From positions 1-37,337 of IMG/VR virus record IMGVR_UViG_3300050343_000109: a stretch of DNA of 37,337 nucleotides. One strand, written 5' to 3'. Position numbers and translations under genes: made by a program. Positions 4,668-31,636 of this stretch are shown piece by piece. Source of the stretch: a virus. Each line of letters opens with the position of its first letter. The stretch's first letter is position 1. Under the pieces are notes generated by a model. The model saw only the letters and a list, made by a program, of their open reading frames with translations. It ran no database searches and was not told where the DNA came from.

Positions 4668-7600
4668 TTTAGCCTCTACACTCTTTAAAACACTACCTAT
4701 AAACTCTTCAAACCTAGGGTTTAAAAGCTCTGGGCTAAGTCTATTCTTATACAGTGTGCCAATGACTTCATCAAAGAAGGTTTTTAACTTAGTAACTAAA
4801 TTTTTAAAATAAACTTCGGCTCTGTTAGTAGCTTTGTATTTAGGGTCTTCTGCTATCTTTCTAACAGCGATAGCAAATTGGTCAGCAAAATATTCATCAA
4901 AACCGTTATCAGGATCGCTGTATTTATTGCTACCTGTTTCTTCTAATCTTTTTTGCGCTTTTTCAAAGTCTTTGTAAATTAACTTACCTAAAGGAGTCCC
5001 TAACAATGAGGACTTGTAGCCTTCAAGGAACACGTGCCCCGCTTCATGTGATATCTCAAGGACAGCTTTAGCACGACTTGCATTGTCAGTAATTTTAGCT
5101 GGGTCAATAATAATTACATCAGAATCGCCAAAACCTATATATCTAGCAGAAGCATCAGAAGCTTTTAAATCATCTAATTGAGCTTGGTAAGCTTCTTGGT
5201 GTTGTTCTGAAAAATTAGGGATACTCCAACCTTGTTGGTTTGGAACCCCATCATCTACAGTTTTAAAATATAAAGTTCTTTTGTAGCCTAGTTTTTGTAA
5301 AATATTTTTGTAAGCCTTGCCTATATTGTTTCCTACTGAGGTTGTAAAAGACTTTGAAAAAAGTACAGCACCAGAACCAATATTAGATAAAGGTTTTTCT
5401 TTTTTACCTTTATTTGATAGATAAGTTTTGTTATCCCCCTCTTCAATATTCATTCTTGTAAAAGGCAGACCTTGTCTAGTAAGGTCGGACTCAATGTAAT
5501 ATTCAGGTTCAAACCTGCCTTCAGCTTCAGGCTCAGTGTTTCTTTCACTTATACCTTCTACTGAATCTATATCTACTCCGTTTCTAGCGGCTAAGTCATC
5601 TAAATACCTTCCATATTTTTGTGGAGTGTTTAAATCTCCAGTAGACTTATATGGCAATACTTCAACACCCGCTTCTTTAATAAGTTCAACTTTTTTTCGG
5701 TTAATCCCTGCATCTTCGTACTCTCGGTCTTTAAAAGTTTTTTTAGGTTCTCCTATTTTTCTTTTGGCAACAACCCTACCTTGTGCGATTACATCTGCAT
5801 CTACTTGAGCAAACTGTTGGTCAGTTAAGGATAATAAAGGTGTACCATTATAATCAATAGTTTTTCCTACCAGTGCAAGGCTACCAATCAATTCATTAAA
5901 CTGTGCTTGTAGACGTGCTCGTGGCCCTAACCCAGGGTCGGTTTGTACTAGTTCTCTGTTTTCTAATAGAGTTGTAATATCAACAGGTTTTCCATCTATT
6001 TTGAACCTTTGAGCCAAGGGTGTATTTAATTTGTTTTTACCGCCAAATTTATTTGCTAAAGAATCTTCAGCATTCTTAAGGGCTTCTGCCGCTACAACTG
6101 CAGGGTCTGCTTCAACTGGGCCTTCTGAGAATATTTTATAACCTTTGGCTGTTTCTCCTGGTTTCTTTATAGAGGGTTCAGTTGATTGAACAAGTCTAAA
6201 ACTAGTAGTAGGATATTTTTTACTTAAGTCAATATAATCTTTTAAGGCGCTAACGGGTACATTATCTATTTCTCTTTTACCTTCATTAGTAATATCTCTT
6301 TTTGTAAAGAAAGCAACATCATCTTTAGCCTGTTCGCTGCCTCCTAGTATTCTTAAAAATTCTTCTATTATATTTTTTTCTACAGCTTTAGGTTTACCTT
6401 GTTGTTCACTACGAGAAGCATAGAATTGATCTTTTGTTTTACCTGGAGTTGCAGAGTCTGGCACTTGAGTAAAAGCTGATTCAGAGGTAACAATATTTAT
6501 CCCAGAGTCTTGTCTTGTTTCAAAGTCTAACCCAGTGTCTTTTTGTTCTTCTGAAGAAATAGGGTCAGTCGTAGGTTGAGGACCTGCTGATTCTTCTTCT
6601 ACTTTCCTTACTTTTAAATCTCTATCAGCAAGTGCTTCTTCTTTAGTTTGTTGCTGAATAGTAAACTCTGGGTTGTTTCTATACCTTTTTTTAGCTGAGA
6701 TAACAGCTTTAGTAATGTTTTTATCTGAAACAGTTTGTCTTTCTATAAGGTTACCAGCTGCATCTTTTACACTTATTACATTGTTGTGATCCGGAGTTTG
6801 TGTTTCAACAAAACCTAGAACTTCAGCTAATGCTGTATCTGTAGCACCTTCATTTTGTATTCTTTTTGCAATGTTATTACCTTCAGGGGTATTGGGGTAA
6901 AGGAGAACACCTTTACTACCACCGTTTTCAGTAGTTTGTACTTCAGTTGCATTTACTCCATCTAGCCCTGTTCTATCTATAATTTTAGGGTCACTGAGTT
7001 GTTCTACAGAAATGTTAGGAATCCATACCGCAGGCTTTATACCTGCATTCATAGCTTTTACTTGGACATTTAAATCTTGCGGAGATTCGGGTTGAGGAAT
7101 TCCGTCCCCTATATCCATATCTTCTACATTTTGTCTTTCTGGTCCGAACAATAAGTTATAAGCTTTACCCATGACATTAGCTGGAGCACCTCTAGCGCCA
7201 CCAGCAATAGATCCAATAAATGCAGCTTCTGCCCTTCTTAAATTAGCCTCTTCTTGGCTGTAGGTTGGGTCAATAGCAAATCTTTGTTGTAGAACAATCT
7301 CTTCTTGTAAAGCTTCAGTAGTACCTTCGGCTACGCCACTTGTAACTAAGCCATAACCAGCAGCTTTGCTTAAACTCTTTATTACTTCTCCAGCACTAGC
7401 ATCACCTTTTACTAAGTCTTTTGCTGCTGTTTTAAATACCATGCCATAAAAAACTTTTTCTCCTAGAACATCTAAAAGAGCTTGAGGTACACCTAATGCT
7501 AAGGCTGCTTTTGCTTCATCTGCAGTTAACTCATATCCTGCATCTCTAAATTCTTCTAGTGATTGCGAAGAACCTACGGTTAAACTTTGTACACCAGAAC

Positions 7601-21458: not shown

Positions 21459-21500
21459 CCAAAAGCAGACGGACTGGGTCCGACTGTTATGTGTCACTGA

Positions 21501-21515
21501 GTGTTATTAACTTTA
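21501..21515 (+). repeat. 15-base leader repeat GTGTTATTAACTTTA, copy 1
   Basis: An identical copy lies at 21863-21877. Each copy is in the leader of an early gene, 12 and 22 bases before the start codon respectively, upstream of the ribosome site. A shared promoter element or RNA signal is possible. Confidence 0.55.
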
Positions 21516-21800: not shown

Positions 21801-21899
21801 CCAAGGTTCAGGTTCACCTTTCAAAGCAACCTCGACGGGGCTCGGTTGATACGAGTCCTGTTGTGTTATTAACTTTAGTCTAAACCATAGGAGGTACAT
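21801..21899 (+). promoter_or_regulatory. Leader with hairpin and second 15-base repeat
   Basis: Between the first two early genes. It contains a 7-bp RNA stem GGGCTCG (21838-21844) / CGAGTCC (21852-21858) with one G-U pair, then GTGTTATTAACTTTA at 21863-21877 and the AGGAGG site of the next gene. There is no T-run after the hairpin, so it is not an evident terminator. Confidence 0.4.
21863..21877 (+). repeat. 15-base leader repeat GTGTTATTAACTTTA, copy 2
   Basis: Identical to 21501-21515. It lies 22 bases before the ATG at 21900, upstream of the ribosome site. See copy 1. Confidence 0.55.
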
Positions 21900-22561: not shown

Positions 22562-23283
22562 ATGCCAATCGGTGAAAAATCTGTTACAGATGTTACACGT
22601 AATAATCAGCCATTGCAGACACAAACGGCGATCCAGAAGGCTCTGAAAAGAGATCTACTCCGGATGCAATACAACTACCAGACTATTTCTACAAGAAATA
22701 CAGTTTGGACGTTGATAACAAACCAACCTTCAATAAATCTCGTGTAGACGGGATGATGAAGATATTCGACGCAAAGAAAGGAACACCAATTGCTTTCTTA
22801 GGCGACGATGAAGAAAAACAAGCCAAGGAACAAGAGTTGTTTGATACTCAAGTTCAACAGGTAGTAGACGGTCTAATGCCACTGCTCGAAGTTGACCCGC
22901 AGACAACTGGCATCAACTTTCTACAGTTGACCACTAGAACCTGGGCTGAGTTTGTAGCTATTGCATATGAGTACAAGGAAGACGCTGAAGGATCTAATCC
23001 TAAAGATGCACTACCAACGTGGCTCATCGAACGTGAAGATAAAATGTTCGACCTCGGTAGGAAAGCAAGGATGTTGTCAGCAGCTGTAGATAAAGCTGAT
23101 ACTCACTTTGGTCTTTCGAAAACTAATCTTGACTCTAACAGAGTTAGAACAGAGATTGAACGCAGGCTTCAAAGACTAGCTGAATGGAACTACAACAACG
23201 TAGTAGATAAATCCATCAAGGTAGCAATTGACCTGAACAAGCAGACTAAAGAGCATACAAAGAGTATGTTTGATCTGGCTTAA
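22562..23283 (+). CDS. Unrecognised early protein, frameshifted near its start
   Basis: About 240 residues. The clean part, in frame from 22609, reads AIADTNGDPEGSEKRSTPDA, IQLPDYFYKKYSLDVDNKPT and continues to SMFDLA at 23283. ATG 22562 begins MPIGEKSVTDVTRNNQ in another frame and needs one shift near 22605 to join it. No ribosome site is visible there, so the start is uncertain. The C-terminal half is helical and charged, with RTEIERRLQRLAEWNYNNVV. No family is recognised. It is the first gene after the terminator and second palindrome, and its stop codon overlaps the first stem of the structured RNA. Confidence 0.55.
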
Positions 23284-23448
23284 TACCTAGTGAGTTATTC
23301 ATCAAACTCGTCTTAAAGTGTAACTAGGTATTATGGTCATTCCGAGGACCTACTAAAGCTCGGGACGGTGGTTACGGAAAGCTCGCGCGGAGATGAAAAG
23401 CTTCGCACTAAGGCTAGATTGCTCCCTAAAAGTATCTAGCCTTTTTTT
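23281..23448 (+). ncRNA. Candidate structured RNA with intrinsic terminator
   Basis: The stretch has no gene. P1: TAATACCTAGT (23281-23291) pairs perfectly with ACTAGGTATTA (23323-23333) and encloses GAGTT/AACTC (23292-23296, 23305-23309). P3: 23340-23346 with 23359-23365, seven pairs with one G-U. P4: GCGGAG (23387-23392) with CTTCGC (23401-23406), one G-U. It ends in a terminator at 23411-23448. The five helices and defined 3' end suggest a stable small RNA, perhaps released from the upstream mRNA. It matches no class I know. Confidence 0.5.
23411..23448 (+). terminator. Rho-independent terminator
   Basis: AGGCTAGAT (23411-23419) pairs perfectly with ATCTAGCCT (23434-23442). The last T begins a run of seven T (23442-23448). 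It closes the structured RNA and probably the transcript of the gene before it. Confidence 0.85.
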
Positions 23449-23621
23449 ATGTCAACTTATGTGTCGTTTGGCGAAATCCATGTCTCCACATGTAAATAAA
23501 ATTGACTAAAACTACAGGCATTGGAGTAGTAAGCGTAAGAGAGTGAACTCAATAAAACTCAATATTTAATTAACCTTCACTACTCCTGCCGACTTTTAAC
23601 CATTAACTACAGGAGGTAAAT
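23449..23621 (+). promoter_or_regulatory. Leader with competing helices at the next ribosome site
   Basis: 173 bases without a gene. GGCATTGGAGTAGT (23517-23530) pairs with ACTACTCCTGCC (23579-23590), 12 pairs with a TT bulge. CTCCTG (23583-23588) in the right arm is also complementary to CAGGAG (23610-23615), the Shine-Dalgarno of the gene at 23622. The two pairings exclude each other, so translation could be switched. ACTACAGG occurs at both ends of the element. No promoter is clear. Confidence 0.4.
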
Positions 23622-24179
23622 ATGGGAATGGATGTATACGGAGAAAATCCAAAACTAATATCTGCAAAACCGGTACAACCGGACTTTGGAGATGCTACAC
23701 AAGAAGAAAAAGATCAATACTTTAATGATCTAGAAGAATTCGAAAGGACTAATGTAGGTTACTACTTTAGAAACAACGTATGGTGGTGGCGTCCCCTATG
23801 GATGTATGTAGCCGACGTTTGCTCGGATGTCCTCTCGGAAGAAGAAATAGAAGCAGGTCATAGCAAATAGTGGCTATTTATATTGACTGAAGAACAAGCC
23901 GAAAAGATAGCTCAATTACTTCAACGCGAGTTAATTTTGGGTAATACACTTGAGTACCAAAAAGAGTACCAAGACGAATTAGATAACTTAGAACAAGTAG
24001 ATTGTGACCTTTGCAATACTACAGGTATACGAAACGATAAGTATGTACAAGGGCAATGTAATGGTTGCGCTGGTACAGGTAAAAAAGATTCTTTTGCTAA
24101 GTCATATCCATTTGATGCTGAAAACGTTCAAGAGTTTCAAAGATTCGTACAAGCCAGCGGGGGGTTTAGAGTATGTTAA
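23622..24179 (+). CDS. Conserved GMDVYG/WWWRPL-type phage protein, interrupted
   Basis: About 185 residues. It starts MGMDVYGENPKLIS with AGGAGG 6 bases upstream, and has GYYFRNNVWWWRPLWMYV, typical of a widespread uncharacterised phage and bacterial family. An in-frame TAG at 23868-23870 ends the first 82 residues, but the same frame continues with EEQAEKIAQLLQRELILG, a CDLCNTTG/CNGC zinc-ribbon-like part and the family-like end FQRFVQASGGFRVC. Removing one A at 23865-23867 and adding one T near 23881 gives HSNSGYLYLTEEQAEK, so two compensating read errors are the simplest reason. Two separate genes (second start TTG 23883) are possible but less likely. Function unknown. Confidence 0.6.
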
Positions 24180-29662: not shown

Positions 29663-31457
29663 AAAATTATATTTAGATTTTGAAACTTATTATGATACTA
29701 ATGTTTCTTTATCTAAAATATCAACTGTTCAGTATGTCACTCACCCTCAGTTTAAAGTATGGGGCGTAGGTGTTCGACTAGAAGATGAACAAACAACCTG
29801 GATCACAGGTGACGAATGTCATGATTTCTTTGCACAAGTTGATTGGGATGAAATAGCCCTTGTTTGTCATAATACTTTATTTGATGCTTATATACTTACT
29901 CAGTATTACGGATACCAACCCGCATATTATTATGACACAGCGGCCATGGCTCGTGGTACAAACCCAAATGAATCTGCACGTTTGATGCATGTAGCTGAGC
30001 GTTTATTTCCAAATGACGATACGATGCGTAAAGGAGACGAACTTGTACAAGCAAAGGGCATAGTTGATTTACCACCTAACGTAGAAGAATCTATTGCTGG
30101 TTATTGTATACAAGATGTAGATCTTACTTATGCAATCTTTAAAAGATTACTTACAAGTTATCCACAGGAAGAGTTAGATTTGATTGACTTAACTGTTCGA
30201 CTTTTTGTAGAACCTAAACTTATGTTAGACACTGACATGTTAATAGAGCATAGAAAAAACATCCTTGAAAACACAAAGAACTTAATAGAAAAAAGTGGAC
30301 TAACCAGAGAAACTTTAGCCTCTCAAGTAAAGTTTGCTACGTACTTAACTGAGGATCTAAACCTTGTAATACCTAAAAAGAAAAGTGTTGCAACTGGTAA
30401 AATGATACCTGCTTTTAGTAAAACTGACGGTGGTTACATACAAATGTGTAGAGCTCACCCAGAGTACAATCATATTTGGGAAGCTAGAGAAGCTGTAAAA
30501 TCACGTATTGAAGAAACACGTGCTGAACGTATGATAAACGCAACAAATCCAGACGGTACCTTTAGTGTACCACTTAGATATTACGCTGCACACACAGGTA
30601 GGTTTGGGGGTTCAGATAAAATTAACTTACAAAACTTACCTCGGGGCTCTGCGTTACGTACTGCAATTATAAGTCCACCTAATCGTACTATGTACATTGC
30701 TGATTTATCTAATATCGAAGCTCGTATGTTAGCTTGGCTAGCAAAAGAAGCTGATTTGATTGACGCTTTTGCTGCTGGCAGAGATGTGTACAGCGAATTT
30801 GCTTCTGATATATATGGACGAACAATAACAAAAGCTGACAAGCTAGAAAGATATGTAGGTAAAACAGCTATACTCGGTTTGGGGTACGGAATGGGGCCTG
30901 ACAAATTTAAGTTAACACTTAAGTCAGGTTCTCCCTCCGTTGAAATTACAGACTCGACAGCCATGGCTATTGTTAGTCAGTATCGAGCTAAGTACCCAAA
31001 CATTAATCGTTTATGGAACGCTTCTAAACAACTACTATTTTACATGTTGAACCGTAGTTCGGATGGCATGACTTACGGACCTTTAACTGTACGCTACAAA
31101 GCACTAGAGCTGCCAAATGGTATGCAACTACAATACCCACAACTTGCATATATACAAAATCAATTTATGTATATGTCTGGTAAAACACAAATCAGGACAC
31201 ACGGACCTCGTTTAACAGAAAATATAGTTCAAGCTTTAGCTCGTATAGTTATTACTGAGCAAATGTTAGAAGTGCACAGACAGCCTGATCTAGATGTTGT
31301 ACTGCAAATACATGACGAAATTATTTCTCTTGGCTCATCAGTACAACCAAACGAGACATTAGATAAGATCCTAGGTATAATGAAAACAGCACCAAATTGG
31401 TGTTCTGATTTACCGCTAGATGCAGAAGGCAACCACAGTACAAGATATGATAAATAA
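29646..31457 (+). CDS. polA: Family A DNA polymerase with 3'-5' exonuclease, Leu at position 762
   Basis: 603 residues, intact. The start is set at ATG 29646 (AGGAG 6 bases upstream); ATG 29643 is the alternative. Exonuclease motifs: LYLDFET (Exo I), CHNTLFDAYI (Exo II) and YCIQDVDLTYAIF (Exo III). Polymerase motif A is DLSNIEARMLAW, motif B RYVGKTAILGLGYGMG and motif C LQIHDEII. In motif B, aligned with E. coli RRSAKAINFGLIYGMS, the residue equivalent to F762 is Leu (codon 30873-30875). Tyr is found in T7 and Phe in E. coli. No DnaJ-like insertion is seen. It replicates phage DNA with the primase-helicase and helicases downstream. The stop overlaps the csrA start (TAATG). Confidence 0.95.
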   Translation: MPPTLKKLYLDFETYYDTNVSLSKISTVQYVTHPQFKVWGVGVRLEDEQTTWITGDECHDFFAQVDWDEIALVCHNTLFDAYILTQYYGYQPAYYYDTAAMARGTNPNESARLMHVAERLFPNDDTMRKGDELVQAKGIVDLPPNVEESIAGYCIQDVDLTYAIFKRLLTSYPQEELDLIDLTVRLFVEPKLMLDTDMLIEHRKNILENTKNLIEKSGLTRETLASQVKFATYLTEDLNLVIPKKKSVATGKMIPAFSKTDGGYIQMCRAHPEYNHIWEAREAVKSRIEETRAERMINATNPDGTFSVPLRYYAAHTGRFGGSDKINLQNLPRGSALRTAIISPPNRTMYIADLSNIEARMLAWLAKEADLIDAFAAGRDVYSEFASDIYGRTITKADKLERYVGKTAILGLGYGMGPDKFKLTLKSGSPSVEITDSTAMAIVSQYRAKYPNINRLWNASKQLLFYMLNRSSDGMTYGPLTVRYKALELPNGMQLQYPQLAYIQNQFMYMSGKTQIRTHGPRLTENIVQALARIVITEQMLEVHRQPDLDVVLQIHDEIISLGSSVQPNETLDKILGIMKTAPNWCSDLPLDAEGNHSTRYDK

Positions 31458-31636
31458 TGAGTAATTTAGTATTAACAAGAAAGAAAAAAGATTCAGTCAT
31501 AATTTATGATAAGAATAAACAATTGTGTAAAATTACTATTACTTCTTTAGGTCCTCGACAAGTTAAGCTTGCATTTGAAGCTGATAATGATGTTAAGATA
31601 GACCGTGAAGAAATTTATAAAGCTAAAAATATTTAA
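31457..31636 (+). CDS. csrA: CsrA/RsmA-like RNA-binding translational regulator
   Basis: 59 residues: MSNLVLTRKKKDSVIIYDKN, then KITITSLGPRQVKLAFEADN and DVKIDREEIYKAKNI. It aligns with CsrA (LILTRR..., ITVLGVKGNQVRIG, APKEVSVHREEIY): L4, R6 and the QV and REEIY motifs are kept, including the Arg equivalent to R44 that binds RNA. The extra loop residues (DKNKQL) lengthen the first turn. CsrA binds GGA in mRNA leaders, blocks or stabilises transcripts and is a global regulator. Here it is translationally coupled to the polymerase by TAATG, followed by a 31-base gap to the primase gene. It may redirect host carbon metabolism or tune phage mRNAs. The short length hides it from cut-offs of 60 codons. 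Confidence 0.85.
   Translation: MSNLVLTRKKKDSVIIYDKNKQLCKITITSLGPRQVKLAFEADNDVKIDREEIYKAKNI

Follow-up and report, generated by a model that had tools for sequence, protein, structure and literature searches.

In an environmental phage, the gap between two early genes contains a structured RNA of 72 bases, which is composed of two consecutive H-type pseudoknots (PK1 and PK2) and a closing hairpin (H), and which recurs with the same architecture in phages of several kinds. On comparative grounds, the existence of this family and its double-pseudoknot-plus-hairpin fold are near certain. Its function is read, with a probability of about 35%, as that of a cis-acting module of early mRNAs that may resist nucleases in the manner of viral xrRNAs.

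The IMG/VR virus record is a single sequence of 37,337 bases and was analysed whole (hereafter termed the window). Minus-strand genes, with a terminase-like frame among them, fill its left part, and plus-strand early genes are found in its right part, including a MoxR/VWA-type pair (DUF2201), a family A DNA polymerase and a CsrA homologue (31457-31636). A 44-nt direct repeat (70%) at 21472-21515 and 21834-21877, upstream of the early genes and ending both times in the identical GTGTTATTAACTTTA, may represent a phage promoter or operator. Between 33000 and 36300 the plus-strand frames appear split into many short ORFs, as if broken by frameshifts from sequencing errors or by decay. As stated in the initial annotation, the stretch holding the RNA harbors no gene: the gap 23284-23621 is gene-free and, together with its flanks, comprises the following features.

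22705..23283, plus strand: upstream early gene (192 aa, no known family), conserved marker for finding relatives
23281-23291/23323-23333, plus strand: P1, 11-bp stem TAATACCTAGT/ACTAGGTATTA with an inner 5-bp stem; not conserved
23335-23338/23347-23350, plus strand: PK1 helix S1, GGTC/GACC; paired in 90% of cells
23339, plus strand: PK1 linker A, between S1 and S2
23340-23346/23359-23365, plus strand: PK1 helix S2, TTCCGAG/CTCGGGA, crossing S1; 98.7% paired, 7/7 pairs change on both sides
23351-23358, plus strand: PK1 A-rich loop TACTAAAG
23366-23367/23375-23376, plus strand: PK2 helix A, CG/CG; first pair CG30/GC22/AU3
23370-23373/23380-23383, plus strand: PK2 helix B, GGTT/AGCT, crossing A; 4 pairs, each changed on both sides, also read manually
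23377-23379, plus strand: PK2 loop GAA
23387-23392/23401-23406, plus strand: hairpin H, GCGGAG/CTTCGC, 6 bp; 96% paired
within 23387..23406, plus strand: H loop AU-GAAA-AG, with GNRA tetraloop, U-A closing pair and A.G mismatch; nearly invariant
23410-23419/23434-23443, plus strand: terminator-like hairpin, 10 bp with a 14-nt loop, and T7 (T-run 23442-23448); lineage-specific
23622..23870, plus strand: downstream early gene (MGMDVYGENPK..., no family)

The stretch folds at -54.9 kcal/mol as compared to a shuffle mean of -42.9 kcal/mol (z -3.33), and is thereby more stable than 200 out of 200 dinucleotide shuffles. In combination with the pairing retained in homologues, this confirms the multi-helix RNA between early genes that the initial annotation had predicted. 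Since neither pseudoknots nor the parts that matter can be shown by a single-sequence fold, relatives were gathered via the upstream gene (7 loci at first, then 80) and their downstream gaps were read. Only the middle part of these gaps recurs among the relatives. All stems of the original proposal are present, but the conserved part is limited to positions 23335-23406, and the two "further stems" of that proposal belong to pseudoknots.

A descriptor search over the gaps yielded one architecture, in which S1 is followed by usually one A, S2, the second strand of S1, an A-rich loop and the second strand of S2. Both helices of PK1 differ wholly in sequence among phages, S1 being formed for example by GGTC/GACC, CGAC/GTCG, AGCT/AGCT or ACTGTT/AACAGT, and S2 by CCCCGAG/CTCGGGG, CCATGTG/CACATGG or TGTATTG/CAATACA. 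Directly 3' of S2 lies the tighter PK2, composed of CG..CG or GG..CC crossed by a helix of 3-4 bp, variants of which are TGTT/AGCA, GGTT/AGCC, GATG/CATC, GCTG/CAGC and GTC/GAC. The closing hairpin usually displays 6 bp and the loop AU-GAAA-AG or AU-GAGA-AG. Family members thus measure about 72-85 nt, with a hairpin of nearly fixed length.

In 22 aligned sequences, 98.8% of the pair cells are occupied by standard pairs, compared to 78.5% in shuffles and 32-44% with slid partners, and both sides have changed in 17 of the 23 pairs. A search model restricted to S2, B and H (R1) retrieved 66 distinct phage sequences, many of which are related, so that counts are not independent and correspond to about 25 effective sequences after down-weighting. 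Here 94.7% of the pair cells are paired, in comparison to 62.1% after shuffling and 36-48% with slid partners. The two helices left out of R1 still pair, S1 in 90% and A in 93% of cells, and the outer S1 pair occurs as CG28/GC18/AU10/UA3. The compensatory stem changes which the initial annotation had named as a test of its own proposal are therefore present. One pair of helix B is UG in 30, UA in 23 and CG in 10 sequences; this U-G/U-A/C-G exchange, together with the location of the genes on the same strand, argues for action at the RNA rather than the DNA level. When the window and its closest relatives were held out of model building, the resulting model (R3) still recovered window positions 23334-23409 (E=2e-19); no further credible match was seen in the window.

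PK2 contributes the inner pair of helix A, one U and the AA of the crossing loop to the positions that are near-invariant after weighting; they are joined by the C 3' of helix B and, in H, by the closing G-C and the loop bases AUGA-AA. A GNRA tetraloop is found in 60 of the 66 distinct sequences (39 GAAA, 21 GAGA), and in 46 of these 60 the stem of H has 6 pairs. A hairpin which is near-constant in length and free in sequence but conserved at its tip suggests tertiary docking of the loop. GGA occurs in the hairpin in 31/66 sequences, where it occupies paired stem positions and changes to GAA with compensation.

Comparison of close relatives reveals a different behavior of the first pseudoknot. 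Between L038 and L033 both flanks are 94-95% identical, whereas identity amounts to 46% in PK1 and 80% in the segment from PK2 to the hairpin. Likewise, identity between L049 and L044 is 96% upstream and 98% in the PK2-hairpin segment, but just 59% in PK1. As short unrelated sequences often align at 45-60%, PK1 has been swapped as a block, with retention of its pseudoknot form. PK1 is the replaceable part of the RNA, while PK2 and the hairpin are its constant core.

The outer elements do not belong to the family. P1, the 11-bp stem with inner stem of the initial annotation, is there and overlaps the TAA stop codon at 23281-23283, but is not conserved; the terminator hairpin with T-run exists as well, as 10 bp, but is lineage-specific. 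Both are shared only with a near-identical relative (L002/L013) and were found neither in L003/L014 (83% protein identity) nor in more distant relatives, and for their absence beyond the near-identical relative they were dropped as family members. In L014, H directly precedes a T7 tract without a terminator-like hairpin. The suspected link to the 3' end of the preceding gene is general among homologues; however, it is not established through the P1 stem.

Further downstream in the window, a module of about 140 bp (ATGTGTCGTTTGGCGA...CTTCACTACTCCTGCCG, 23457-23596) with partly complementary ends is missing from the 99%-identical relative L002, but reappears, with a DNA identity of 90-95%, in phages that otherwise differ (L004/L066, L290, L291). 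The copies in L290/L291 are again located shortly 3' of a stop codon. This stretch is a mobile structured module.

Carriers of the tandem-pseudoknot RNA include phages of about 58 kb like that of the window, T4-like phages, and records of 66, 86, 146 and 153 kb. Most records contain one copy. The carrier L260 possesses a T4-type major head protein, and L252, which is T4-like by its phage families, holds two copies bracketing a cold-shock-protein gene. The T4-like contig L260 additionally contains a glutamine riboswitch (RF01739, 45 bits) at positions 7349-7491 of the minus strand. Of the 18 carrier-type records scanned, 11 have a csrA gene; these consistently belong to the class of about 58 kb, and no csrA was detected in the larger or T4-like records. 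A nucleotide search of 50,697 phage records gave no match, and the RNA was not found in six related T4-like marine phages (cultured or single-cell). Across 563 sampled bacterial genomes (274 + 289), a thin sampling, the model detected no genuine copy; the sole match, situated inside a lon-like gene, was discounted. A pattern scan of cellular genome contigs gave 28 matches, seemingly due to chance or coding sequence, and the many matches of a looser viral pattern represented a coding motif and were discarded.

In 65 of the 66 distinct sequences the RNA is preceded by a co-directional open frame, and the distance from its stop codon is at most 15 nt in 34/66 and 5-9 nt in 28/66. The upstream genes are unrelated to one another. 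So are the downstream genes, none of which is fixed and which differ even between close relatives. Often the next start codon lies 13-35 nt 3' of the RNA, and many copies run directly into the ribosome-binding site of the next gene; some are followed by a terminator-like hairpin or, no more than about 35 nt away, by a ribosome-binding site. In the window, the next start codon is 212 nt away, behind the terminator-like hairpin, and the RNA is located about 2 kb into the early operon. Many copies have neither a promoter nor a terminator of their own. In L093, L096, L104, L117 and L122 a sigma70-like promoter, identified by eye, is located some tens of bases 5' of the RNA, H is followed by a T-run in L014, L039, L011 and L251, and terminator-like hairpins are located both upstream and downstream of the RNA in the early operons. 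A discrete small RNA is possible, but promoter-like sites lie directly upstream in some lineages only.

Larger gaps between stop codon and RNA are often filled by other hairpins or modules, such as P1 in the window, M2 in L047/L053/L060/L063 and M3 in L039/L044/L049. In relatives that carry the RNA behind another gene, the original gap has just a plain G+C-rich hairpin containing UUCG. M2 is a second recurrent RNA-like family, in which an outer stem encloses TATCT-stem-AGACTAAGTAACG...TGCAAGACAAAGC (L012:3395-3465, L015:4210-4275, L040:3920-3980, L047:555-650, L068:4070-4140); it occurs stacked with the tandem-pseudoknot RNA or separate from it and has no match in Rfam. A third such family, M3 (GACGGTGAATCTGGGGGA...CTACCCAGCACCGTC), displays complementary outer arms that differ between loci (L041:4400-4465, L039:4395-4460, L090:5690-5760, L070:4965-5040, L091), and no credible Rfam match was obtained for it. 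Moreover, a hairpin CGATAATACCGGGGAGCTCGTAACTCCCC is repeated 3' of the RNA at the same sites (L044, L047, L053, L054, L015).

At the gathering threshold no family of Rfam 15 matches the RNA, and scans at low threshold returned chance-level matches only, in agreement with the initial annotation, which had been able to name no class. Its exclusion of a tRNA likewise stands, as neither ARAGORN nor Rfam gave a tRNA or tmRNA match. The known ribozyme classes in Rfam (hammerhead, HDV, twister, pistol and others) and the xrRNA models held there did not match either. Compensatory mutations preserve the fold in over 60 distinct sequences, and no description was found in the open-access literature; the RNA constitutes a real family, which appears to be new.

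Several assignments fit poorly or were rejected. In a CsrA-binding sponge RNA, unpaired GGA would be conserved in several loops; here the GGA bases covary as stem pairs. A type III toxin-antitoxin RNA (ToxI-like) would form tandem repeats upstream of a ToxN-like toxin gene, whereas the RNA is usually present in one copy per record; for the adjoining proteins there was no PADLOC match and no toxin family in Pfam. The downstream genes are unrelated and not of the constant class that marks a riboswitch. A T-run right after H is confined to some lineages, so that the RNA is not an intrinsic terminator in all members. No open frame fits the element and indels in relatives break every frame, which excludes a coding sequence. 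Stop-codon read-through, considered because of the short spacing between stop codon and pseudoknot, was dismissed since the frames close within the element.

The position of the RNA on the same strand directly behind stop codons, without a fixed downstream gene, favors a self-contained element within the mRNA, as does the fact that it often lacks its own terminator, is exchangeable with plain hairpins and can be stacked with other modules. On the preferred reading, the RNA would fold at once into a rigid rod once the ribosome has cleared the stop codon immediately 5' of it, and the GNRA hairpin would dock back onto this rod. The resulting mechanical block could shield the upstream segment from exonucleases or define its 3' end. 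However, a core so conserved is not obviously needed for a nuclease barrier, as simple hairpins serve at the same sites; copies behind sigma70-like promoters would be located at the 5' end of the transcript; and the fact that PK1 is replaced as a whole may point to a specific partner. The invariant core renders self-cleavage, antitermination and a stable trans-acting RNA serious rivals. A new self-cleaving ribozyme, which would cut early phage mRNA between genes with PK2 and the GNRA hairpin as catalytic part and PK1 as periphery, is unlikely, albeit with a chance worth considering. The compact build of two pseudoknots, the small number of invariant bases located at PK2 and H or close by, the freely replaceable PK1, the spread over unrelated phages without partner gene or fixed neighbor and the clustering of other structured modules at the same sites are consistent with such an activity, but no known ribozyme model matches, the helix order differs from that of HDV, twister and pistol, and nothing points to a cleavage site. 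Similarly tentative, and improbable to the same degree, is a catalytic or partner-binding RNA class in which the hypervariable pseudoknot cassette, swapped between near-identical phages, would be attached to the constant PK2-hairpin core, perhaps giving the RNA its specificity when it competes with a host or rival factor, the RNA being one of the exchangeable modules behind stop codons.

Antitermination, in which the RNA once transcribed would modify RNA polymerase for read-through of downstream terminators as does put of HK022, has a rather low probability. Several intrinsic-terminator-like hairpins in the early operons, some of them just 3' of the RNA, and, in two kinds of phage, its position immediately 3' of sigma70-like promoters would fit this role; terminator-like hairpins upstream of the RNA, its place far inside the operon in the window and the build of put as two plain stem-loops do not. 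An equally low chance is assigned to a stable trans-acting RNA (sponge, decoy or inhibitor of a host factor such as CsrA) cut from or co-transcribed with the early mRNA. Promoter-like sites of its own in some lineages, the four loci with a T-run after H and csrA in carriers of about 58 kb point in this direction, but a promoter and terminator are missing in many copies. The action on CsrA suggested by the initial annotation is not supported: the GGA is paired and present in only 31/66 sequences, and csrA was not found in the larger and T4-like carrier records. Least probable, with a slight chance, is a riboswitch or other leader controlling translation of the next gene: the pseudoknotted, globular shape, the invariant core and the frequent spacing of 13-35 nt to a start codon are compatible with it, whereas the genes that follow have no relation to one another and differ among close relatives, and in the window the next start lies 212 nt away behind the terminator-like hairpin.

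Environmental phages, T4-like ones and some above 100 kb among them, are hereby shown to carry a structurally well-supported RNA family. The exchange of PK1, and the fact that other structured modules follow the same stop codons, point to small folded RNAs as interchangeable parts of early mRNAs. As the double pseudoknot rests on covariation, its fold is directly testable.

Among known systems, the xrRNAs of RNA viruses are compact pseudoknotted domains behind stop codons, sometimes more than one, with a conserved core and an exchangeable periphery. The phage RNA resembles them in all these respects: compact pseudoknotted domain, core, periphery and position. For xrRNAs, a ring-like pseudoknot fold is described in PMC8571300. 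In contrast, the phage RNA belongs to DNA phages and combines tandem H-type pseudoknots with a GNRA hairpin without forming a ring. Consecutive pseudoknots also occur in tobamovirus 3' UTRs, upstream of a tRNA-like end. Common to both are tandem H-type pseudoknots after a stop codon, but the phage RNA lacks the tRNA-like end and has a GNRA hairpin of fixed length; no sequence relation is claimed. With small self-cleaving ribozymes (HDV-like, twister, pistol) it shares the compactness of a double pseudoknot, variable outer helices and scattered contexts, while helix order and conserved bases are different and no Rfam match exists. Hairpins sometimes carrying GGAUG, and the many carriers encoding CsrA, recall the CsrA sponges of the CsrB/RsmZ type; unlike these, the phage RNA has one hairpin only, with a GGA that is paired and not conserved. 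The put RNA of phage HK022, finally, consists of two simple stem-loops and modifies RNA polymerase for terminator read-through. Like put, the phage RNA is transcribed in cis within an early operon, just behind promoters in some lineages, but it is built of two pseudoknots and a hairpin.
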